64,000 nt of DNA from NCBI RefSeq assembly GCF_003600645.1, contig NZ_CP032482.1:3844001-3908000 (forward strand), in the 5' to 3' direction. Origin of the DNA: Yersinia rochesterensis (lineage in GTDB: Bacteria; Pseudomonadota; Gammaproteobacteria; Enterobacterales; Enterobacteriaceae). The notes under the pieces were generated by a model that did not search any database, was not told where the DNA came from, and saw only the letters and a program-made list of their open reading frames with translations. Numbering within the stretch: the first letter of the stretch is position 1; every line of letters begins with the position of its first letter. Shown here in pieces: positions 32,355 through 42,275 of this stretch. Position numbers and translations under genes: made by a program.

Positions 32355-32419
32355 TTTGATTTTTATTTCAAATTTGGAGGAAGATCCGATTCGGCTGTTA
32401 GGTATCGGAGCATTGTTTC

Positions 32420-32974
32420 GGTTGATAATGGTTTAGTGATCTACTTATCTTCGCCGCCTCAACCGAGAAGGAGGGCAGGCCGCCCCTCCTTCACCTGCGG
32501 CTTGCGCGAAATATTGCCCTGCGGGTAAACCTCCAGCGTCTTCCGGGCTAACGAGCCAGCGCGATTCGCATCCATGCTCAAGCGCGCTTTTCGCGGGCAT
32601 CCATGCCCGCTCACTCTACCCTCCATCCTTGTCGGCAATATCTCTGATTGCGCTTAACATCAAAAACCAATTCAAAACCCTGTTTTTAGGTTTTGATGTT
32701 AAAAGCACATTTGAGCAGCCGAGTGAAAAGTGGAGGTAGGACGCGAGGCATGGACGCCGAGCGAGGGCCGCTTGAACAGGAGTGAATCGGCCCGGTCCGT
32801 CAGCGAAACGATGAGTCGAGGGCCACCCACAAAGTGGGCTAGCGATACGTGCGCAAGCGCGGGGATTCCATAAGGGGTCACGCGCTTGTGACCCCTTTGG
32901 CGGTTGAGGTAGCTGAGGTGAAGCCGCCGCCAATCTTATGTCAACCGAATCAGATCACTGAACAATTATCAACC
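32420..32974. repeat. G+C-rich hairpin element, copy B
   Basis: A 555-bp element with perfect 10-bp inverted ends (GGTTGATAAT at 32420-32429, ATTATCAACC at 32965-32974). Beyond these tips another 13 positions pair with three mismatches. It is homologous in reverse orientation to copy A. It contains GAAGGAGGG/CCCTCCTTC (32467-32492), GCGGGCAT/ATGCCCGC (32593-32610), a long imperfect stem (32654-32702), CCCAC/GTGGG (32826-32838) and AAGGGGTCAC/GTGACCCCTT (32872-32897). Its right end reaches the stop codon of the regulator gene. No credible gene lies inside. Confidence 0.85.
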
Positions 32975-34902
32975 TAAATTCGACTCAAACAATCAATCGC
33001 GATGGCCTTAAAACTATCAAAATGCTGGCTACTCAATAAACGGCTCATGGAGCGCTCGCGCACAAAAGTGACAAACAGGTCATAAATGGCCATCGCTTCT
33101 TCATAATCAGTTTTACTGATAGCCAGCAAGAAAATCACATGAGCAACTTCGCCATCCCCCCAAGAAATCCCCTCAGGAGCCAACAAAGTGACCACCACGG
33201 TTTTCTTGGCTAATAAGCCCAGTGAATGTGGCAGTGCAATCCCCTCACCCAGCATAGTGGAGACTATCGCCTCCCGCTCGACTACTGAGGGGTAAAAATC
33301 CGCATCAACAAATCCTTCTTCTTCCAACTGACCACAGACTTTTTTGAACAACTGCTCCTGGGTCATCGGTTGGTCAATAATCATAAAGTGATTGTTATCA
33401 AAGAATTTTTCCAGCATATAAGGTCGGGTGCGGTCGACTAAGACCAGTTTACCGAGTTGCTCTAATTGATATTCTGTTGGGAACGGCGACATCACCACCA
33501 CCGGCTTGTTTTTCTCTGCTAATCGCGAATTGGAAATAATAAAATCTTCGTCGATATGGTCGAGATTGTCGTAATCACGCAGGGAAATAGTCTGAGTCAT
33601 CACAATCTGCGGGTACTTACGGGAAATTTGCGCCTGAATCATCCGAGTGGTGGAATTCCCAGTGTCACACACCAACATGACCTGCGGATGGCGCTGATAA
33701 CCAATGTTGTAATGGCGCTCCAGCCCCACCCCGATGTGCAAGACCAAATAGCCGATTTCATTCTCACTTAAGCTGTAAGGCGTATATTTCCCCCAACTGG
33801 AAACTGCCGCCAGAGTGACATCATAGGCCATGGGATAATGCTGTTTAATATTGGATAACAGTGGGTTAGGAATAGTAATCTGATATTTCACCCGCGTAAT
33901 CATAGTTTTGATATGGGTAAGCAGGTCACTGCGCAGCTGCTTATCGCCCTGCAAATTGTAGTTATAGTGAGCATTGATATACGAGAGGATATAATCCACC
34001 AGCGTTTCTTCGTCATCGGCATTGATTTCACTGGGGCGGCTAGTGCTGGGCTGGCTGGTCTGTACCCGGCGGGCGGCAATGTTCACCCGCAAATAAGCTT
34101 CTTCCGCCGCTGAAATATCTTTACCGGATAAGAGCTTGAGCTGATTTGCCAAACGGCCAGAAGCCAATTTGACCGCCTCATCAACATCTTCAGCATCAAA
34201 ATCAGATAATGGGTAGCCGTCGGTGATGCGTTTTATCGCCACCGCACAGTAGAAAATCAGGTATTGCTCGCCCTCATCCGTTAACCGCACCGCGTATTGT
34301 GCCAGTAACTCATGCAGCAACCCCGTCAGCTCAGGCAGCGTTTGGATACTGAGATAATCAGTATTTAATAATGGGTTATCAGCATCTTGCAGTTGTAACT
34401 GAAACAATAAATCTGTCAAACAGGTGCGAATAGCCAGCTCCGTTCCGAACAGTTTCATGCCATAGCGAGGTTTAGTTTCAATCGTCAGGTGGTAGCGGTT
34501 TAGCCTTTCTCTCACCTCAGCCATATCATTTTGCAAGGTGCCACGGCTGACAAACCATTCATCGGCTAAATCCTCTAGCTTCAATGAAAAAGCAGAGGTC
34601 AAAAAACGGATTAACAGATAATGCACTCGCTCACTGGCAGTGCGCGGCGTCAAATGCATCTTACGATTTTGCTGCTGTAAAGCACGGAAGCGCTCAGCAT
34701 CATCAATCATCAGCCGATAACCAAAGCCACGGTTATGAATAAAGTGCGCACCATAATGCTCAAGAACCTCATTCAACGCCGTAATATCCGCCCGCACAGT
34801 GCGTGTCGAGACCGCAAAGCGTTTCGCCAACTCCTCTTGAGGCAGCGTTTCCGATTGCAATGCATCGAACATATAGGCCAGACGTTGATAGGGAAATCTC
34901 AC
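32974..34902 (-). CDS. BglG/MtlR-type PTS-regulated transcription regulator
   Basis: A 642-residue regulator of the PRD family, probably controlling the adjacent DUF4310-type operon. Domains in order: DeoR/HTH_11-type helix-turn-helix (about 5-60, STRTVRADI), a second Mga-like HTH (about 85-165), PRD1 (about 175-275), PRD2 (about 295-400, with His330 and His389), an EIIB-Gat-like domain with a P-loop cysteine (Cys412 in CDTGNSTT), and an EIIA domain with His559 in ALPHSLG. Such proteins sense sugar through phosphorylation by HPr and EII proteins. The DNA-binding start favours activation of initiation over RNA antitermination. A lactonase gene lies upstream, 71 bp away. Confidence 0.88.
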   Translation of the reverse strand: MRFPYQRLAYMFDALQSETLPQEELAKRFAVSTRTVRADITALNEVLEHYGAHFIHNRGFGYRLMIDDAERFRALQQQNRKMHLTPRTASERVHYLLIRFLTSAFSLKLEDLADEWFVSRGTLQNDMAEVRERLNRYHLTIETKPRYGMKLFGTELAIRTCLTDLLFQLQLQDADNPLLNTDYLSIQTLPELTGLLHELLAQYAVRLTDEGEQYLIFYCAVAIKRITDGYPLSDFDAEDVDEAVKLASGRLANQLKLLSGKDISAAEEAYLRVNIAARRVQTSQPSTSRPSEINADDEETLVDYILSYINAHYNYNLQGDKQLRSDLLTHIKTMITRVKYQITIPNPLLSNIKQHYPMAYDVTLAAVSSWGKYTPYSLSENEIGYLVLHIGVGLERHYNIGYQRHPQVMLVCDTGNSTTRMIQAQISRKYPQIVMTQTISLRDYDNLDHIDEDFIISNSRLAEKNKPVVVMSPFPTEYQLEQLGKLVLVDRTRPYMLEKFFDNNHFMIIDQPMTQEQLFKKVCGQLEEEGFVDADFYPSVVEREAIVSTMLGEGIALPHSLGLLAKKTVVVTLLAPEGISWGDGEVAHVIFLLAISKTDYEEAMAIYDLFVTFVRERSMSRLLSSQHFDSFKAIAIDCLSRI

Positions 34903-34973
34903 TGCTCCACTCCGTTATTCAGAATATTAGCTGTCCCCCTGACAGCATGGCCGCAGGGGGCGCATACCTCACA

Positions 34974-36215
34974 TTATTTTTTCTCTGCTGGCGGCACAAA
35001 CACCATTTGTGATGGACTGCCGACGGCGGTATAGCCGGGTACAAAGGTCAATTTGCCACTTTGTGGGTCAACTTTAAAGCGGGTTATGTTATCGCTGCGT
35101 TGATTCATGGCGTATAGGTAGTGGCCAGCAGAGTCGAGCACCAGCGTGCGCGGATAATCACCTCGCGTCCAAACCTCTTCCACCGGCTTAAATTCACCGT
35201 CCGCCGTCACAGCAAACTGGCCGATACTGTTATGCAGCCGGTTGGCAACATACAGGAATTTACCGTCTTTCGAGAGCGTCAGACCGGCCGCAAAACTGGT
35301 GCCACGGTAATCCGGCGGTAACGATGAATGCGTATGTAACTGTTTCAAAGTGCCTTTTTCTGTATCCAACTGATAACTGGTCAGCGTCGAGGCTTCTTCA
35401 TTAATTAAGAATAGCGTCTTACCGTTAGGATGGAACACAAAATGACGTGGGCCGGCACCGGTGGATGAGGCGCTGATAAAAGGCGGAGAGTTCGGCATCA
35501 ACTTGCCATTATCCGCATCAAATTGGTATTGATAAATCCTGTCCAATCCCAGATCAGTCGAGAACACAAATTTGCCACTCGGCGAGCTGGCAATCATATG
35601 CGCATGTGGGCCATTGTGGTCACTGATGGCGAAGCTGCCTTCTACCGCCGCTGCCGGTTTCGCCGCGCCTGCCGGGCCTTCATCTTGCTCTACTGAGCTG
35701 GCCTCTGCGAGTTTACCGCCATTTTGCACCGGGAACACCGCCACCGAGCCGCTAATATAATTGGCAACCAATAAATGGCTGCCCGATGGTGTTAATGAGA
35801 GATACACCGGCCCCGCGCCCTGGGAATCAACCTGATTAATCAATGTCAAACTGCCATCAACCGGGTTGATACTGTATGCTGCAATCGCGCCGTGTTTACC
35901 GCCATTGTAATCCGCCACTTCACTGGCAACATATAAGGTTTTGCCCTGTGCATCCACCACCAGTTGCGCCGGATTGGCCAGAGAGCTAACCAAGGTTTTC
36001 TCACTTAATTCACCGGTTTTAGAATCAACCTGTAGCCGGTAAACTCCTTCCCCATTCGGGTGATAGGTTCCGACGTAAGCGAATGATTTATTGGCATTCT
36101 GTTCGGCATGGGCCAGAGGATTAAACAGCGCGACCGTCGCCAAAGCAATGCCCGCCGACAGGCTTTTTAATCCGGTCAGGCCAGTTAAACCAGAATCTGT
36201 TGAGCTGTTATGCAT
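34974..36215 (-). CDS. Exported lactonase-family beta-propeller protein
   Basis: A 413-residue protein of the 6-phosphogluconolactonase-like (Pgl/YbhE) seven-bladed propeller family, but with an N-terminal signal peptide (hydrophobic residues 18-36, cleavage near AHA-E). That predicts action in the periplasm or outside. The blades show repeated segments ending in LYVAS, LLVANY, KFVFSTD and KFLYVANR. A lactone-opening role on an aldonolactone is inferred from the family and from neighbouring sugar-acid genes. It lies between the regulator and the dgaF-like gene, with a 129-bp gap on the operon side. The start codon has AAGGA upstream. Confidence 0.85.
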   Translation of the reverse strand: MHNSSTDSGLTGLTGLKSLSAGIALATVALFNPLAHAEQNANKSFAYVGTYHPNGEGVYRLQVDSKTGELSEKTLVSSLANPAQLVVDAQGKTLYVASEVADYNGGKHGAIAAYSINPVDGSLTLINQVDSQGAGPVYLSLTPSGSHLLVANYISGSVAVFPVQNGGKLAEASSVEQDEGPAGAAKPAAAVEGSFAISDHNGPHAHMIASSPSGKFVFSTDLGLDRIYQYQFDADNGKLMPNSPPFISASSTGAGPRHFVFHPNGKTLFLINEEASTLTSYQLDTEKGTLKQLHTHSSLPPDYRGTSFAAGLTLSKDGKFLYVANRLHNSIGQFAVTADGEFKPVEEVWTRGDYPRTLVLDSAGHYLYAMNQRSDNITRFKVDPQSGKLTFVPGYTAVGSPSQMVFVPPAEKK

Positions 36216-36344
36216 ATGGATCCTTACTCATAGGGAATGGCTATCGAATGGTATGGAGCTATTCAACTTCACAGTCAGGGCACCCGGCTGGCTACCCCGT
36301 AGATACTGATGTTCTATCAAACTTGATGCCAATAAATCAGAAGG

Positions 36345-37085
36345 TTACTGCACGATTTTTTTGACGATATTCAATAAGGTTTTCACATCGTTCGGGCGGG
36401 TATTGCCGGTTTTGCTGTCGATAATCGAGCTATAGATATGCGGAATGACTTTTGTCACGCCAGCATCCAGTGCGATTTGCAGAATTTGTTCGAAATTCTC
36501 CAGGTCAATACCACCGGTTGGCTCCAGCCAGAATCCCGTTGCCGCACAAGCCTCGGCAACAAAACGGTATTCTTCGATGGAATCCAGCCCATTCATCGGG
36601 AAGAATTTTACCGAGCTGCCGCCCATATCTTTCAGCATGGCAATAGCGGTGGTGACCGGAACAATCGCGTCCTTTTGCTGAGAACTCAGCGGGCCGGTGG
36701 AAATCTTCACATAGCCTACTTTGCCGGTCGGGGAAATCAGGCCGTTAACTACAGTATCCTGCTGGCCCAGTAAAGCGCGGCTTGGGCCGACACCAGTAAA
36801 GACTTGATTCACATGCTGCGGCTGCACTTGGTGTGAAATCTGGCTGACCATCGCCGACTGTTTGGGGTCACCCGCACCCAACCCAACCGACAACGCATTG
36901 TCGATAAGTGCCGCGTACTCGCGCATATCTTTGACGGCGCTGTCGACATCCGGATAATTCTTCGATAACACGCCCACCAGCACATGGCCTTCAGCGGCCT
37001 GATAAATATCGCGCGCATTGTCTTTAGAACCGGCCAGCACATTCAAACACACGCGGTCACGGTAATAGTTTGGGGTCAGTTTCAT
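36345..37085 (-). CDS. KDGP aldolase family protein, DgaF-like
   Basis: The 246-residue protein matches DgaF, the aldolase that cleaves 2-keto-3-deoxygluconate 6-phosphate to pyruvate and glyceraldehyde 3-phosphate in Salmonella glucosaminate breakdown. A TIM-barrel fold is expected, with the Schiff-base lysine likely Lys160 in SSVKFFPMNG and a phosphate-binding region around EPTGGIDLENF. It begins 3 bp after the dgaE-like stop codon, so the two enzymes are co-translated. It is the last gene of the main operon. Substrate identity is inferred from the family. Confidence 0.88.
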   Translation of the reverse strand: MKLTPNYYRDRVCLNVLAGSKDNARDIYQAAEGHVLVGVLSKNYPDVDSAVKDMREYAALIDNALSVGLGAGDPKQSAMVSQISHQVQPQHVNQVFTGVGPSRALLGQQDTVVNGLISPTGKVGYVKISTGPLSSQQKDAIVPVTTAIAMLKDMGGSSVKFFPMNGLDSIEEYRFVAEACAATGFWLEPTGGIDLENFEQILQIALDAGVTKVIPHIYSSIIDSKTGNTRPNDVKTLLNIVKKIVQ

Positions 37086-37088
37086 CAG

Positions 37089-38201
37089 TTAGGCTCCCTT
37101 AACCAAGCGGTTAATGCAGGTGTAAATCGTCTCGAGCTGCGATGGCGTCACACTGCGCACATCCACCTCAATCTTGCCTTCGTTGGCTTTGTAAGCGCGG
37201 AAGTAAATGGCAATATCGCCATTTTTGAGTGCCTCGACCAAATCTGGTGTTGAACGGCCAATTTTGGCTTCATCAAAGCTAATTTCAGTGCGGGCAATAT
37301 CACGCCCCGCGGCATCCCAAACCACTTTGGCTGAGACACCATCAATAGTATTTAACTGGCTGATAAATGGCGTCATTTTGTCAATCATCTGCTGGCCAGT
37401 TTCTTTCTCCAGCGTCATGTAGCTTTCAATCGCGCGGGTCAAGCCAAGGATGCCCTCTTTACCCACTTTCATCGCCCGGCCAATGCCGTTTGATTGCAAT
37501 TTCACCCAATCTACATAGGTTTTTTTGCCCAACACTAAGCCGCTGGTCGGCCCTTCAATGGCTTTAGCACCGCTATAAATCACCAAATCAGCGCCCATTT
37601 GGTAGTAACACTGCAAATCTTCTTCTGCGGCGGCATCAACAATTAATGGCAATTGATGCTTGCGCGCGATCACCACCGCCTGCTCAACTGACAAAATGCT
37701 TTTTTGCACACAATGATGGGATTTTATATACAAGATCGCCGCCGTATTCGGCGTGATCGCCGCTTCCAGTTGTTCTGGCAAGCACTCATTGGCATAACCC
37801 GCTTCCACCACTTTGCCGCCGCCCAATGTCACCATGGTATCAACCGGCGCGCCAAAATTAACATTGTGGCCCTTGGGCAAAACAATCTCATGGGGCACAG
37901 TGCGCGGTGCGGCGTGTAAGTTAACCAGTAAATTGGCATTGTCTTTGACAATCACGGCGGCGACCGACTGGGCTATCCCGGCAGAAGCGCAAGACACCAC
38001 CACCGCACTTTCTACATTCAGTAAGCTCGCAATATAAGCGCCCGTCTGATTCACCAAATCTTTCATGACAAAGTAATGATTCAGACCCAGCTCCACGGCC
38101 TCAACCACATCCTGCCGTGGCGTTGAGACACCCAGCATCGTCATGCGGCCAGAAGCATTAATCACATGCTTTAACTGGTATTTTTCATAGACTGAAGACA
38201 T
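37089..38201 (-). CDS. DgaE-like PLP-dependent ammonia-lyase
   Basis: A 370-residue SelA/DgaE-family enzyme. DgaE removes ammonia from 2-amino-2-deoxygluconate 6-phosphate, giving 2-keto-3-deoxygluconate 6-phosphate. The PLP lysine is likely Lys213 in YSGAKAIEGPTSG, with the cofactor-stacking and aspartate region LIVDAAAEEDL just before. The start NASGRMTMLGVS matches the family. It overlaps the amidohydrolase gene by 17 bp and is followed by the aldolase. Whether the true substrate is glucosaminate 6-phosphate or a related acid cannot be read from the sequence. Confidence 0.88.
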   Translation of the reverse strand: MSSVYEKYQLKHVINASGRMTMLGVSTPRQDVVEAVELGLNHYFVMKDLVNQTGAYIASLLNVESAVVVSCASAGIAQSVAAVIVKDNANLLVNLHAAPRTVPHEIVLPKGHNVNFGAPVDTMVTLGGGKVVEAGYANECLPEQLEAAITPNTAAILYIKSHHCVQKSILSVEQAVVIARKHQLPLIVDAAAEEDLQCYYQMGADLVIYSGAKAIEGPTSGLVLGKKTYVDWVKLQSNGIGRAMKVGKEGILGLTRAIESYMTLEKETGQQMIDKMTPFISQLNTIDGVSAKVVWDAAGRDIARTEISFDEAKIGRSTPDLVEALKNGDIAIYFRAYKANEGKIEVDVRSVTPSQLETIYTCINRLVKGA

Positions 38202-39354
38202 CTTTTAACTTCCCTTCATCAGTTAATACTAAGTCACCGGCGACGACCGCAGCCAGTGGCACCAGATACTTCTCACCGGTTACCGATTTACCCTCTGAAT
38301 CACTGAACACCTGAGGCTGTTGTTTCAGCTCAAAAATAGTGAAATCAGCGTCATAGCCAGTATCCAGCACCCCTTTATGGGTTAGGCGCAGGGCCTGTGC
38401 GGCATTTTCTGTCACACAGCGAATCACTTGCTCAAGGCTCAAGCCGATAGTGAAAAATTTGGACATCACGGTCGCCAGACTATGGACTGGCCCGCTCAGG
38501 CGGTTGCGGCAATAAATGTCGGAACTGATGGTGTGCGGGTAAATTCCTTGCTTGATGGCAAGCTCGGCCACATCAAAACTGAAACTGGCGCTACCGTGGC
38601 CCACATCTAATAATACGCCGCGCTTCAGCGCCCGCTGGATGGATTCACGTAAGGCACCGGCAGGGGTCAAAATTCGGTTCGGTTTGCCATTGTAGCAATG
38701 GGTAATAATGTCGCCCTGAGTCAGTAAATCGGCAATTTCATCCAGATCCGGCGGGTTATTGCCAATATGCACCATCAGCGGCAACTGGTTGTTTTCTTGC
38801 TGAATTTCTTTAGCGCGCACCAAGGGTTTGATGCCATTTTTACCGACTACGCTGCTACTCATGCGCGCTTTGATGCCAATAATAAAGCCGGGATTGCGGG
38901 CAATTGCCTGGCTGACACTTTGCTTATCAATCTGCGCCATATCGGCTAATTCGTTTTGCGTGACAATGCCGGTTTTCGCAATATTCAGAAAAGCATAAAC
39001 ATGGGTTTTGGCCGCGCGGGTTAAGCGGTAAAAATCATCTACATTATTGGCGCCGGTGCTGCCTGCATCCACCACCGTGGTGACGCCACTGGCAACGCCG
39101 ACTAAATCGGCTTCATCATGATAAATAGGTGACGCGGGGTAACAGTGGACATGGGAATCAATCCAGCCAGCACTGAGGTAATATTTCCCGGCCAAATCCA
39201 ATACTTTTTTAGCCGGTTTAGCTAAAAGCCCCGTTTGATTATTTGGCACTGCAGAAATAGCCGTATCCACGGCCATTATTTTGCCGTTATTAATCGCGAT
39301 ATCAACCTGACGGCCATCAACTAATACTGCTCCAGTGATAATAAAGTCATACAT
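38185..39354 (-). CDS. Amidohydrolase/deacetylase family metallohydrolase
   Basis: A 389-residue metal-dependent hydrolase of the dihydroorotase/deacetylase branch of the amidohydrolase superfamily. The metal-binding HVH (His68, His70 in DSHVHCYP), a candidate bridging lysine in IGIKARMSS, histidines in LMVHIGN and ITHCYNG, and the final aspartate in SSDIYCRN are all visible. In this operon it most likely removes an N-acyl group before the DgaE step; this is inference. It overlaps the dgaE-like gene and follows the DUF4310 gene by 83 bp. It has no signal peptide, so it acts in the cytoplasm. Confidence 0.88.
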   Translation of the reverse strand: MYDFIITGAVLVDGRQVDIAINNGKIMAVDTAISAVPNNQTGLLAKPAKKVLDLAGKYYLSAGWIDSHVHCYPASPIYHDEADLVGVASGVTTVVDAGSTGANNVDDFYRLTRAAKTHVYAFLNIAKTGIVTQNELADMAQIDKQSVSQAIARNPGFIIGIKARMSSSVVGKNGIKPLVRAKEIQQENNQLPLMVHIGNNPPDLDEIADLLTQGDIITHCYNGKPNRILTPAGALRESIQRALKRGVLLDVGHGSASFSFDVAELAIKQGIYPHTISSDIYCRNRLSGPVHSLATVMSKFFTIGLSLEQVIRCVTENAAQALRLTHKGVLDTGYDADFTIFELKQQPQVFSDSEGKSVTGEKYLVPLAAVVAGDLVLTDEGKLKDVFSL

Positions 39355-39437
39355 TATCTTTATTCTCCATTATAGCCTTCTTAACTTGATGTCGCGGCGG
39401 GGTAAATATCCCGTTATTGGAATATTTACCCTGTGGA

Positions 39438-40088
39438 TTAAGAGATTGCGACTGGGAAAATAGACCCTAAAATCATGGCACCCAAAATTGCGCCACCGGT
39501 AATAGGTTTGTTCCACAGATAAAATAGTAATGCGCCGCCTAAAGAACCGATACCAATTGGAATTGAGGCGGTAATGGCGGATAAAATAATCAATGGCCCT
39601 AAGAAACGGCCAGATGAATTACCTGCGCCCATCATGACATCAGCACCGTAAGTCGAATTACTTTGGTTAATGGTAAATTTACGTGCCAAAATAATCAGAT
39701 AGCCGATAGCTAAACCAATAAGCAAACCCGTCACTAAAGAAGCAGCGAAATTAGCGACTGGGAAGACAAATCCAGCGCCCAGTAATAATGCTGGCACGCC
39801 CAGACCAACGCCCGTTTGAATGGCTCCACCGATATCCAAAATACCGACCAGCGAACCTTCAATAATTCGGGCGAATAAGAAGCTGGCACCAAATGCAGCA
39901 ACCGCACCATAAACACCAGTGTCCATGCCCGCACGTAGCATTGAAACAAAGGCCACTTCGTTAAATGCGCCGATCCCATATAAATAATACATATGGGTAC
40001 CCGCGAATACACCGGAGGATAATAATCCTACAAAGATCGGAAATGACCAGTCGGCATACCAGAAATTATTCTTGGTTTGTTCATCCAT
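39438..40088 (-). CDS. DUF4310 family membrane protein
   Basis: A 216-residue hydrophobic protein with about five or six predicted membrane helices and glycine-rich stretches (GAGFVFPVANF, GGALLFYLWNKPI). The family is known only as DUF4310 and is always, as far as I recall, paired with DUF4311. ATG 40088 (MDEQTKNNF) lies 7 nt from AGGAG; ATG 40091 and TTG 40094 are alternatives. It probably forms a transporter with DUF4311, by analogy with two-component PTS membrane units; I see no EII phosphorylation motif. Its start lies 21 bp after the DUF4311 stop codon. Confidence 0.82.
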   Translation of the reverse strand: MDEQTKNNFWYADWSFPIFVGLLSSGVFAGTHMYYLYGIGAFNEVAFVSMLRAGMDTGVYGAVAAFGASFLFARIIEGSLVGILDIGGAIQTGVGLGVPALLLGAGFVFPVANFAASLVTGLLIGLAIGYLIILARKFTINQSNSTYGADVMMGAGNSSGRFLGPLIILSAITASIPIGIGSLGGALLFYLWNKPITGGAILGAMILGSIFPVAIS

Positions 40089-40109
40089 CATCAAGCTCCT
40101 CTCGCTGTG

Positions 40110-40886
40110 TTATTTTCCGCTTAATGCGTTATGAATAGTGTCGAGCCATACTGGAGCACTCAGACTGAATGATTCCAGGAATTTCAGATCGAATCCGCGG
40201 AAGAAACCACTGAGCACGAATAACAGCACAATAACTGTCATCATGATTTTGGTAACTTTATTCCAGCCGCTTTCCTCAACACCTTTACCAATTAAAATAC
40301 CCAGAACCAGGCCCGGTACTGCGTTGCCCATAATTAACTGCGCCAAACCGCCGAAAATAGTGGCCCAGAAACCAGAGCGACGCCCAGCATCAATTGCCGC
40401 TAACCAGAAAATAACTGGCATCACGGTGTTAACCAGAATATTTGCCGCAGGTACCAGCACTTTAATTGCCGTGACCTGTAATGCCGCAGGAACTGCCGAT
40501 GCCGTGGTATTTAAAAAGCTGACCACAATAACCCCGATAATCCCGCAGGCAATCGCCATTTTTTTCGGGTTATGCATGGTTTCCGCCACATTGCGATTTT
40601 TAATCATCAATGCTGCGGCACCCCAGTTAGGAATAATGCGGTGGTCGACGTCTTGAGTAAAAGCCCCTGCTGCCACTGAAGAAGCCCAGGCGTTGAAGAA
40701 GAACCCTAACCCAAAGGAGAAATGCGAAGCCGGATCACCCTCACACGAGTTCAACTCGCCCAAGGTACGAAACGCCCCCATTCCCTGTATGGTCGGTGCA
40801 TGGAACATGCGGGCGGCCCCCACACCAACCCCCACACCGACCAATCCGCCGATAATAATCGACTTAAAAAGAATGATTAGAAACAT
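40110..40886 (-). CDS. DUF4311 domain membrane protein
   Basis: A 258-residue protein with about six membrane helices and a glycine/valine-rich first helix (GGLVGVGVGVGAARMFHAP). A polar loop holds conserved-looking CEGDPASHF and FTQDVDHRIIPNWGAAAL, which could be a substrate or partner site. It is the presumed partner of DUF4310. No ATP-binding, EIIB or EIIA motif is present, so the energy source cannot be told. It sits 18 bp from DUF4312. Confidence 0.82.
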   Translation of the reverse strand: MFLIILFKSIIIGGLVGVGVGVGAARMFHAPTIQGMGAFRTLGELNSCEGDPASHFSFGLGFFFNAWASSVAAGAFTQDVDHRIIPNWGAAALMIKNRNVAETMHNPKKMAIACGIIGVIVVSFLNTTASAVPAALQVTAIKVLVPAANILVNTVMPVIFWLAAIDAGRRSGFWATIFGGLAQLIMGNAVPGLVLGILIGKGVEESGWNKVTKIMMTVIVLLFVLSGFFRGFDLKFLESFSLSAPVWLDTIHNALSGK

Positions 40887-40904
40887 CAGTTTATCCTTTT
40901 CATC

Positions 40905-41201
40905 TTATTTAGAAACGAAGATAACCTTATCTGTATTAATGATTGTCACACTCACGGTAATATCTAATTCGACACTGTAGGTTTTTCTTTCCCGCGACAG
41001 GAAAAAGAATAAAAACTTTTCATTTTTTACTGATAATTCTGCTTTTAATACTTTTACGTCTTGTGGCTCAATTCGCAGCAAAATATTTTGTGTCGACTTC
41101 AATACCGTATTCTGGACATTACCGAGTGCATTAGCGAAAGCTTTACCTTTAGTATCGCCTTTACCTTTGACTTGCACCTGAGTGGTATATTGCTCTTTCA
41201 T
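40905..41201 (-). CDS. DUF4312 family protein
   Basis: A 98-residue soluble protein, charged and beta-strand-rich in appearance, with no signal peptide and no recognisable catalytic motif (VQVKGKGDTKGKAFANALG at the start). It overlaps the SFCGS gene by one base (TAATG), showing coupled translation. It may be an accessory subunit of the DUF4310/DUF4311 pair; function unknown. The region is more A+T-rich than its neighbours. Confidence 0.82.
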   Translation of the reverse strand: MKEQYTTQVQVKGKGDTKGKAFANALGNVQNTVLKSTQNILLRIEPQDVKVLKAELSVKNEKFLFFFLSRERKTYSVELDITVSVTIINTDKVIFVSK

Positions 41202-41566
41202 TACGGCTGACCATATTTCTTGATATAGGCTTCCACCAGCTTTTGCCCTAATTCTTCTTTATCCATAAATCCGAAGCCTAAAACCTTGCAGCCTTCGTTT
41301 ATTGCCGTCACGCCTTCTTCCACTGAACGCATGCCGTATTTAGCTTTGTAGCCATATTTATTTTGTGCAGTAATAGCGCCTGCACCGCCACTACCACAGA
41401 ATGAAATACCGAAATCTGCTTGTTCGCTATTCATCACATCGCCCAATTTCATATCTGCGGCCACTCCGGGAATAACCACCACGCGGCCACCGGCTAACTC
41501 AACACCTTGCCCAACTTTCTGGCCTTTTCCTAAACGGTCGCCAATCACAACAGTAATTTGACTCAT
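41201..41566 (-). CDS. SFCGS family glycine-rich protein
   Basis: A 121-residue cytoplasmic protein named for its SFCGS motif (residues 55-59, Cys57). The segment ISFCGSGGAGAITAQNKYG resembles the active-site loop of ribose-5-phosphate isomerase B and LacA/LacB isomerases (CGTG, then ANK, then G). The N-terminal VVIGDRLGKGQKVG looks like a nucleotide- or phosphate-handling strand-loop. It may be an isomerase-fold sugar-phosphate enzyme or a phosphocarrier; the sequence does not decide. It is the second gene of the operon. Confidence 0.8.
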   Translation of the reverse strand: MSQITVVIGDRLGKGQKVGQGVELAGGRVVVIPGVAADMKLGDVMNSEQADFGISFCGSGGAGAITAQNKYGYKAKYGMRSVEEGVTAINEGCKVLGFGFMDKEELGQKLVEAYIKKYGQP

Positions 41567-41589
41567 AGTATTTTCTCCAGAACAGGTTT

Positions 41590-41934
41590 TTATGGGTTAT
41601 TATCTTTCGCTACTTCAAAATGCACCGACAACAAATAAGCTTCTTCAATGGGTAAATTAGGAAATTTATCGACCACCTGCTGAGCCATTTGCATCGAATG
41701 TGCTGAAATCTCATCAAATAATGATTTATCTACTTCAGGTAGTGGCTCGCCCGTTATTGAGCGCAAGACCATAGCCCGAATATGTGATGTCAACATTTGC
41801 TGCTGAACAGCATTGGTAAAAATATTTTCGGCATTTAACATCGCGGTAATTTCACCTAATACCCGCTCAGTGATGGTAATGGCCTCTTTCATTCCAGGGT
41901 CTTCGGCTGCATTCAATGCGGCTACATCATTCAC
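41590..41934 (-). CDS. Small PRD domain protein
   Basis: A 114-residue protein that is essentially a single PTS regulation domain: helical throughout, with histidines in MLTSHIRAMVLR and at the end in YLLSVHFEVAK, where PRDs are phosphorylated. It has no DNA- or RNA-binding domain. Translation likely begins at GTG 41934, with AGAGGA 8 nt upstream. As the first gene of the operon it may relay PTS phosphorylation to the large PRD regulator or to the transporter; this is inference. Confidence 0.75.
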   Translation of the reverse strand: MNDVAALNAAEDPGMKEAITITERVLGEITAMLNAENIFTNAVQQQMLTSHIRAMVLRSITGEPLPEVDKSLFDEISAHSMQMAQQVVDKFPNLPIEEAYLLSVHFEVAKDNNP

Positions 41935-42275
41935 GCTGGCAATCCTCTATTCCTTACGGCTACAACTTTCTGACTGCAAAGATAAGTTCAGTTATTTATT
42001 CGTCATCCCTTGCCTCTGCGCTATAACATCACCCTACCTGCAAGCGGAATGGGTGTGTAGCGGCATTTTTTCCAGTTCAAAGTGGAAATGTAATGGACTG
42101 AAGGGATCACTTTCGCAAAATACGCCGTCACATCCCTAACTTAATCATTAACAACAAAATAACTTGCTATATAAATAGAGGGTGGAAGCAGATACTGGAA
42201 AAAAGTTCGTGATCCGGATCTCTTTCTTTTCTCGCCGGAAGCGCCTAATATCAGAGTAATATTAAGCTATTTTCG
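41935..42275. promoter_or_regulatory. Divergent gap between the PRD operon and rnk
   Basis: About 340 bp, A+T-rich, which must contain the promoter of the minus-strand operon. I found no sigma-54 minus 24/minus 12 pair there. On the plus strand TATATAAAT (42168-42176) is a possible minus 10 for a short transcript ending at the hairpin before rnk. Confidence 0.4.

Follow-up and report, generated by a model that had tools for sequence, protein, structure and literature searches.

Ten genes on the minus strand of the window (the whole 64,000-nucleotide stretch of Yersinia rochesterensis DNA that was analysed), running from 41934 down to 32974, may together make up a self-contained operon for the catabolism of a 2-amino-2-deoxy sugar acid that is N-acylated and 6-phosphorylated; this acid would enter by a DUF4311/DUF4310 carrier, be deacylated and then be broken down by DgaE- and DgaF-type enzymes. 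We give this reading an even chance of being correct. As substrate, N-acetylglucosaminate or one of its stereoisomers would be the simplest choice. DUF4311 and DUF4310 would build the membrane carrier, with DUF4312 and SFCGS as its cytoplasmic partners; the EF_0837-type amidohydrolase would strip the acyl group, the DgaE-type lyase would then eliminate ammonia, and the DgaF aldolase would yield pyruvate and triose phosphate. A PRD/EIIA regulator, probably acting at a near-palindrome upstream of the first gene (Table 1), would couple expression to PTS phosphorylation. We infer the substrate and its acyl group, the order of the steps, the transport role, the origin of the 6-phosphate and the pairing of regulator and operator. 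If true, the pathway would give a function to seven families that are labelled hypothetical in NCBIfam and are found from Enterococcus to Salmonella, Serratia, Yersinia and Aeromonas.

Gene content, order and distribution

All ten open reading frames are present at the positions and in the order that an earlier note on this DNA had given: PRD protein, SFCGS, DUF4312, DUF4311, DUF4310, amidohydrolase, DgaE-like lyase, DgaF-like aldolase, lactonase and PTS-domain regulator. Gene content and order, like the conserved residues and the conserved near-palindrome with its location described below, are directly demonstrated. The tight linkage described in that note holds at most junctions: the gaps from PRD to DgaF are +23, -1, +18, +15, +83, -17 and +3 nt, but they widen to +129 nt ahead of the lactonase and +71 nt ahead of the regulator. 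The sequence makes an ATG one or two codons downstream of the listed TTG the probable start of DUF4310.

Table 1. Features of the gene cluster, in window coordinates.
Feature	Coordinates	Strand	Evidence
Near-palindrome TTTCCACTTTGAACTGGAAA, candidate operator	42069..42088	.	upstream of PRD gene
Small stand-alone PRD protein, 114 aa	41590..41934	-	TIGR03582, 131.6 bits (cut-off 69.35)
SFCGS protein, glycine-rich, 121 aa, conserved Cys57	41201..41566	-	TIGR03577, 224.5 bits
DUF4312 protein, 98 aa	40905..41201	-	TIGR03578, 128.2 bits
DUF4311 membrane protein, 258 aa, candidate carrier subunit	40110..40886	-	TIGR03580, 503.3 bits
DUF4310 membrane protein, 218 aa, candidate carrier subunit	39438..40094	-	TIGR03579, 391 bits
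EF_0837-type amidohydrolase/deacetylase	38185..39354	-	TIGR03583, 546.2 bits (above cut-off, 432.15)
DgaE-family PLP ammonia lyase	37089..38201	-	TIGR01437, 592.6 bits (above cut-off, 385.3)
DgaF-type KDGP aldolase	36345..37085	-	NF047796, 400.2 bits (above cut-off, 300)
7-bladed lactonase, accessory	34974..36215	-	PF10282, E 1.9e-104, above cut-off
HTH-Mga-PRD-EIIA2 transcription regulator	32974..34902	-	PF08279, PF05043, PF00874, PF00359, above cut-off

All eight genes between PRD and DgaF, both included, exceed a curated NCBIfam cut-off (in gene order TIGR03582, 03577, 03578, 03580, 03579, 03583, 01437 and 03581). Seven of the eight fit models named for a single neighbourhood, EF_0829-0839/AHA_3910-3917 (TIGR03577-03583), of which the operon is thus a member; the set is therefore already known to curators, with its function unassigned. 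The open-licence PMC literature on DUF4310, DUF4311, DUF4312, SFCGS and EF0837, as far as its accessible parts go, showed no functional study; there, these genes are mentioned in in-vivo-expression, Tn-seq, genome-comparison and transcriptome studies.

There are at least 542 relatives; in the 80 nearest, all Enterobacterales loci, the nine core genes are complete in 78, the other two loci being cut by contig ends, and strict gene order is kept in 77. DUF genes and dgaE/dgaF occur together in 78 of 78 complete loci, the reverse of the frequent separation that had been named as grounds for abandoning the proposal, and another 19 genomes, all of those checked, have the DgaE gene beginning beside the DUF genes. 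The lactonase is present in just 29 of the 78 complete loci. The ten genes are therefore real, but the system is a core of nine with one optional member, which makes the proposed lactonase step optional. The lactonase itself is probably exported, its N-terminus being signal-like by eye, as in ten relatives. All nine core genes also occur in Salmonella, Klebsiella and a Bartonella plasmid, and the set recurs in E. faecalis. One Aeromonas copy has lost the central genes. E. coli genomes gave no DNA match, and viral contigs no relative.

Catabolic enzymes and candidate substrates

The catalytic motifs described earlier as intact are so in both the amidohydrolase and the DgaE-like lyase. H68, H70, K162, H196, H219 and D279 of the amidohydrolase, which correspond to the metal ligands of the superfamily, are identical in 66 of 66 de-replicated rows, completing the metal-site motif set; relatives in the PDB are 8wzy, 2ics, 2ogj and 8je0. 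The DgaE-like protein has H163, K213, R304, R335 and R349 in 38 of 38 de-replicated rows and H162 in 37. Lined up with 7lc0, its active site, including three phosphate arginines, keeps the catalytic His and the PLP lysine. For DGL, the available part of the published account gives roles for the catalytic His and Arg, and docks the phosphate near three arginines (PMC9529869). The aldolase matches PDB 3lm7 with 513 bits.

That DgaE and DgaF degrade glucosaminate 6-phosphate is upheld in part: DgaF exceeds its equivalog cut-off and the DgaE-like active site is kept, but the DgaE-like protein scores 362.3 bits against the D-glucosaminate-6-P lyase equivalog NF047797, where 600 are needed, so the exact substrate is not fixed by the family match. 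This large shortfall counts against the best explanation, as does the carboxylate arginine 226 of DGL, which is Lys in 25 of 38 DgaE-like rows and Arg in 13, with the charge kept. Both observations would suit a substrate that does not derive from a hexose, either another (R)-2-acyl acid or a beta-hydroxy amino acid carrying a phosphate, with DgaE and DgaF having shifted to a phosphorylated skeleton of related kind; amidohydrolases related to this one reportedly cleave acetyl-(R)-mandelate. We consider such a substrate somewhat unlikely, given that DgaF exceeds a KDPG-type equivalog cut-off and that the three phosphate arginines are present in all 38 rows.

The dga operon of Salmonella, which serves D-glucosaminate, comprises the mannose-family PTS DgaABCD, DgaE and DgaF, and its regulator is of a different type from the HTH-Mga-PRD-EIIA2 protein found here. 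The two operons are alike in their DgaE-family lyases, which share catalytic and phosphate residues, and in a DgaF above the cut-off. They differ in that here the mannose-family PTS is absent, with DUF4311, DUF4310, DUF4312 and SFCGS in its place, a deacylase is added, and the DgaE equivalog score is not reached.

An established pathway without phosphorylated intermediates at these steps deacetylates N-acetylglucosaminate and then deaminates it to KDG, according to the accessible part of a study of Pseudoalteromonas, where the compound is the oxidised chitin monomer GlcNAc1A (PMC9537276). This ong pathway (OngB, OngC, KdgK) resembles the proposed one in that a 2-amino-aldonate is deacetylated, then deaminated and sent into the KDPG route; as far as the available text describes it, the ong pathway differs in that OngB is like subtype V D-aminoacylases, KdgK phosphorylates after deamination, and uptake is by a sodium symporter. 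The operon might then be its phosphorylating counterpart, handling GlcNAc1A made by the cell's own LPMO. Two Aeromonas strains have an LPMO and lack close OngB/OngC, their authors, in the part of the paper available, allowing for other deacetylases and deaminases (PMC11653859), and Aeromonas carries this set of gene families (AHA names; locus L024). Against this, LPMO_10 occurs in 15 of the 42 genomes that have DUF4310, one of the 42 through a fragment match, and in 63 of the 253 that lack it (P 0.18 by Fisher's test, with no kinship correction), and the source genome of the window has no LPMO_10. A chitin LPMO was accordingly rejected as the source of the substrate, and we regard this version as unlikely. 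If the preferred reading is right, it would offer a phosphorylating route for N-acyl amino-sugar acids; for Aeromonas, those authors had not settled which other deacetylases and deaminases might act on such acids.

The membrane pair and its putative partners

In a PEP:sugar phosphotransferase permease, an EIIC-type membrane protein is partnered by EIIA and EIIB, and no such set exists among the ten proteins: EIIB and EIIC gave no Pfam match at E up to 1, and EIIA2 occurs in the regulator only. The profile search of these proteins bears out the earlier remark that no kinase is present. Because the operon contains neither a PTS permease nor a kinase, DUF4311, DUF4310, DUF4312 and SFCGS are taken as its candidate carrier; searches with all four matched no transporter family. 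DUF4311 has several hydrophobic segments by hydropathy and is 68% identical to its E. faecalis counterpart, while hydropathy indicates no transmembrane segment in DUF4312. Neither a comparison of DUF4311 with DUF4310 nor one of internal halves gave a similarity signal. Weak DUF4311 matches in two genomes (G112 and G140) were discarded as a different gene, a membrane protein that by eye has a J-domain-like C-terminus. If the carrier role is true, DUF4311/4310 would be a new carrier type.

The neighbours in other genomes bear on this role. On the Bartonella plasmid an EI-HPr fusion lies directly downstream of the cluster, which fits PTS dependence; PRD/EIIA control alone could also account for it, a point against the preferred reading. 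Compared with the NCBIfam-named set, the operon here adds the optional lactonase. E. faecalis, for its part, adds a PTS EIIC and a MupG-type hydrolase within the cluster and a pfkB kinase behind it, so that uptake there may depend on a different carrier. An 8-kb contig that most resembles E. faecalis keeps the gene order seen here, uninterrupted by other genes; it ends 337 nt past DgaF, which weakens the carrier argument a little.

It is most improbable that the pair works instead as a membrane enzyme coupled to ions, in the manner of MtrCDE, the Mtr sodium pump of methanogens. A deposited note on a Salmonella DUF4310 gene does give an MtrC-type KEGG match at 3e-4, and MtrC, MtrD and MtrE are six-helix proteins of a rare fold, according to the accessible parts of two papers (PMC10998594, PMC12774963). 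The homology was rejected, since in this genome the Pfam models PF04211 (MtrC), PF04207 (MtrD) and PF04206 (MtrE) miss DUF4310 and DUF4311 even with E as high as 10, and no Mtr chain came up in either of two PDB profile searches.

A marginal link, new in this analysis, joins DUF4310 (residues 8-65) to YhfT (226-306; hhalign E 0.0022, a score reached by 0 of 40 shuffles), hinting at a module common to E. coli yhfYUT. DUF4310 does not reach the gathering score of the YhfT model PF10797 (26.1 bits), which in this genome matched the true YhfT gene only, at E up to 10; DUF4311 against YhfT alone was dismissed, 15 of 40 shuffles reaching the score. Also new is a weak resemblance of SFCGS to RpiB and YhfU around the conserved Cys, where the block scored 29.6, against 14.9 for the best of 4402 control blocks. 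SFCGS shares with RpiB/LacAB sugar-phosphate isomerases a Cys-Gly-[Ser/Thr]-Gly loop and a later N-K stretch (hhalign E 0.0012 against the RpiB profile), but is shorter and stays below the PF02502 (LacAB_rpiB) gathering score, with 16.5 bits against 24.7; 11 of 13 SFCGS members give matches below that cut-off, the best at E 0.0038. A PDB profile search with SFCGS returned only a chance nitrogenase match and not RpiB, which counts against the RpiB reading.

The E. coli yhfS-yhfZ operon likewise has a PRD protein (YhfY), a Cys-loop protein (YhfU/DUF2620), the multi-TM YhfT, the putative hydrolase Php, presumably of the amidohydrolase superfamily, and the PLP-type YhfS, which aligns with the DgaE-like lyase (hhalign E 2.4e-5). 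It differs in that YhfT is one 434-aa chain, marginally similar to DUF4310 and not to DUF4311, the other enzymes differ, and no DUF4312 match is found. DUF4311 and DUF4310 (fused as YhfT), an RpiB-like Cys protein (SFCGS/YhfU) and a stand-alone PRD protein could represent a class of transporter not recognised before, one that E. coli K-12 would have as well and that adds phosphate to its substrate on uptake; we think this distinctly unlikely. Phosphate would have to pass, at every step conjecturally, from HPr to the PRD histidines, the conserved SFCGS Cys and the sugar acid; such a relay would explain a phosphate-demanding lyase without a kinase in the operon, and the EI-HPr neighbour in Bartonella. 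The YhfT and RpiB links are weak. Kinship with YhfT, YhfU and YhfY, if confirmed, would offer a handle on an unexplained operon of E. coli K-12.

Candidate operator and regulators

H51 and H105 of the PRD protein, presumably corresponding to the phosphorylated His of other PRDs, are kept in more than 95% of 68 de-replicated rows. The regulator passes the Pfam cut-offs for HTH_11, Mga, PRD and PTS_EIIA_2, and H559 of its EIIA domain is kept in more than 95% of 42 de-replicated rows; it is the likely reader of the near-palindrome. This candidate operator is new in this analysis. With both strands counted, it is the sole place in the window within 3 mismatches, 0.03 matches being expected. In 67 of 85 loci a site with at most 3 mismatches lies upstream of the PRD gene, and 1.72 Mb hold 71 such sites; the consensus was built from nine upstream regions, which are not independent tests. 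Fourteen of 16 Yersinia genomes each have one single zero-mismatch place, and all 14 of these are upstream of the PRD gene. The operator is therefore likely to have this operon as its single target, a check in other Yersinia genomes that strengthens the argument for a single operon, and it could serve as a simple reporter for finding the inducer.

Gene set and its distribution

Ten open reading frames run on the minus strand in the order proposed in the earlier note: PRD protein, SFCGS, DUF4312, DUF4311, DUF4310, amidohydrolase, DgaE-like protein, DgaF, lactonase and regulator. The tight linkage also claimed there holds at most junctions, but gaps of 83, 129 and 71 nt lie ahead of the amidohydrolase, lactonase and regulator genes, respectively. 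All eight genes from PRD to DgaF score above curated NCBIfam cut-offs. One of the eight models is TIGR01437 (DgaE family); the other seven, all of type hypothetical, share a neighbourhood name (EF_0829-0833, 0837, 0839, paired in most with AHA_3910-3917). Since seven models are named after one neighbourhood, NCBI curators had already treated it as a functionally unassigned set. A stretch of ~560 bp with terminal inverted repeats of 27 nt (89% complementary) reaches the regulator's stop codon and looks like a miniature mobile element.

Coordinates of features in the window and in fetched loci
Feature	Sequence	Position
Ten-gene operon (minus strand)	window	41934-32974
Stretch resembling a miniature mobile element	window	32416-32978
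Candidate operator	window	42069-42088
Second conserved block	window	42104-42120
yhfY-X-W-U-T-like genes	own genome, L168	4006-8834
Full core cluster with EI-HPr fusion gene	Bartonella plasmid, L022	7560-17350
DgaF similarity	E. faecalis IDRL-9065, L021	15780-16516
Interrupted similarity	Aeromonas caviae KAM479, L024	6001-6555

A genome scan gave at least 542 relatives, of which the best 80 loci, all Enterobacterales by title, were studied. The expected co-occurrence of all ten families stands for the nine core genes (78 of 80 loci, contig ends interrupting the set in the other two) but not for the lactonase, found in 29 of 78 and absent even from 4 of 11 Yersinia. Core-gene order is strict in 77 of the 78 complete loci, the exception being a Providencia locus with the regulator upstream. 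The DUF genes do accompany DgaE, the start of whose gene adjoins the set in 19 of 19 additional genomes. DUF4310 occurs in 42 of 295 order-level genomes and 16 of 99 genera (one match is a 31-residue fragment), and DUF4311 in 12 of 398 genomes sampled across the phylum. Among the fetched loci, three Yersinia species have exactly the DUF4311 of the window, and the window is accordingly assigned to that genus. In Salmonella, the set runs from STM4440 to at least STM4447, flanked by cybC and a relBE-like pair. A 56-kb Bartonella plasmid has the complete core set with an EI-HPr fusion gene directly 3' of the regulator, and type VI secretion genes adjoin this cluster. In Aeromonas caviae KAM479, similarity breaks off at residue 43 of DUF4310 and resumes, in the same short stretch, at residue 98 of DgaF, the middle of the cluster being lost.

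The Bacillota sample consists of one named record and contigs from phage preparations. In E. faecalis the set is interrupted by genes for a PTS EIIC, a MupG-family hydrolase and a small protein that gave no Pfam match, and a pfkB kinase gene follows it; its DgaF similarity extends across two reading frames where no gene is listed. A contig of 8 kb whose deposited title is 'Listeria phage LM 4-14-1 clone' reads regulator-PRD-SFCGS-DUF4312-DUF4311-DUF4310-amidohydrolase-DgaE-DgaF, without intervening genes, and stops 337 nt past DgaF. Despite its name it is, by content, bacterial DNA near E. faecalis. DUF4311 also had matches among entries labelled Enterococcus, Salmonella and Escherichia phage.

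Candidate operator upstream of the PRD gene

The near-palindrome TTTCCASTTYGAASTGGAAA is shared by nine upstream regions: that of the window, six from Yersinia species and two from Serratia. It is the sole place in the window with ≤3 mismatches (0.03 matches expected; 1 of 100 shuffles reached two). Among 85 loci (86 less the Listeria phage clone, which gave no PRD match by tblastn), it lies 5' of the PRD gene with ≤3 mismatches in 67 and ≤5 in 83; it was not seen there, at ≤5 mismatches, in the E. faecalis locus L021 or the Erwinia locus L084. The 1.72 Mb of loci hold 71 sites with ≤3 mismatches. Exactly one zero-mismatch site is present in 14 of 16 Yersinia genomes, counted irrespective of operon presence, always upstream of the operon's PRD gene (14/14); the other two are without a site, and further operator-like places in Yersinia carry two or three mismatches. 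The reader, presumably the operon's own regulator, is therefore likely to have one main target. Immediately upstream of the near-palindrome is a second conserved block, TTTTGCGAA..GATCC-like, which may be a CRP site because STM4441-2 appear as crp-regulated in a listing in PMC11000858.

Enzymes, probable substrate and candidate carrier

The DgaE-like protein aligned with 7lc0 (DGL) over query residues 3-364. In the docking described for DGL (PMC9529869), Arg301, 332 and 346 lie close to the phosphate and Arg226 lies close to the carboxylate. The phosphate arginines are conserved in 38 of 38 de-replicated rows, whereas the position of Arg226 is occupied by Lys in 25 rows and by Arg in the other 13. 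The name 'D-glucosaminate-6-phosphate lyase' is not claimed, as the equivalog cut-off was missed; DgaF is above its own. The amidohydrolase, related to the solved structures 8wzy, 2ics, 2ogj and 8je0, has a complete metal motif in 66 of 66 rows, in agreement with the intact catalytic motifs noted earlier. Both the substrate of the operon and its acyl group are matters that we infer. A non-phosphorylated route of GlcNAc1A deacetylation and deamination is established in Pseudoalteromonas, as outlined in PMC9537276; for two Aeromonas strains, PMC11653859 has OngB/OngC not found, its authors leaving room for other enzymes. LPMO_10 did not track the cluster (15/42 vs 63/253 genomes, P 0.18, kinship ignored).

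As the earlier note had it, no kinase is present: the operon is without its own PTS permease or kinase here, in Salmonella and in Klebsiella. It is mainly for this reason, an operon-level comparison, that the DUF module (DUF4311/4310/4312/SFCGS) is treated as the candidate carrier.

Possible likeness to RpiB and the yhf operon

Of 13 SFCGS members, 11 gave a sub-threshold match to LacAB_rpiB (best E 0.0038) and 5 gave a match to DUF2620. Profile-profile E-values are 0.0012 for SFCGS-RpiB, 0.0004 for YhfU-RpiB and 0.0057 for SFCGS-YhfU, with nine unrelated pairs at 0.07-0.59. Scored against RpiB, a 24-column SFCGS block that spans the Cys reaches 29.6; among 4402 blocks taken from 15 other families the maximum is 14.9, given by YhfU in the same register. 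The SFCGS profile did not return RpiB from the PDB, which counts against the likeness.

DUF4310 matches residues 226-306 of the membrane protein YhfT (E 0.0022, a score reached by 0 of 40 block shuffles), while the YhfT Pfam model by itself misses DUF4310. DUF4311 has no match to YhfT, 15 of 40 shuffles reaching its score. YhfU adjoins YhfT in 17 of 18 loci. Together with the SFCGS matches to RpiB and YhfU, the DUF4310-YhfT match and this adjacency suggest, at weak sequence scores, that a PRD protein, a Cys-loop protein and a membrane carrier may form a module shared with yhf. In the own genome, yhfS and php were unmatched in the 11-kb stretch around the yhf-like set, in which yhfY-X-W-U-T-like genes are consecutive.
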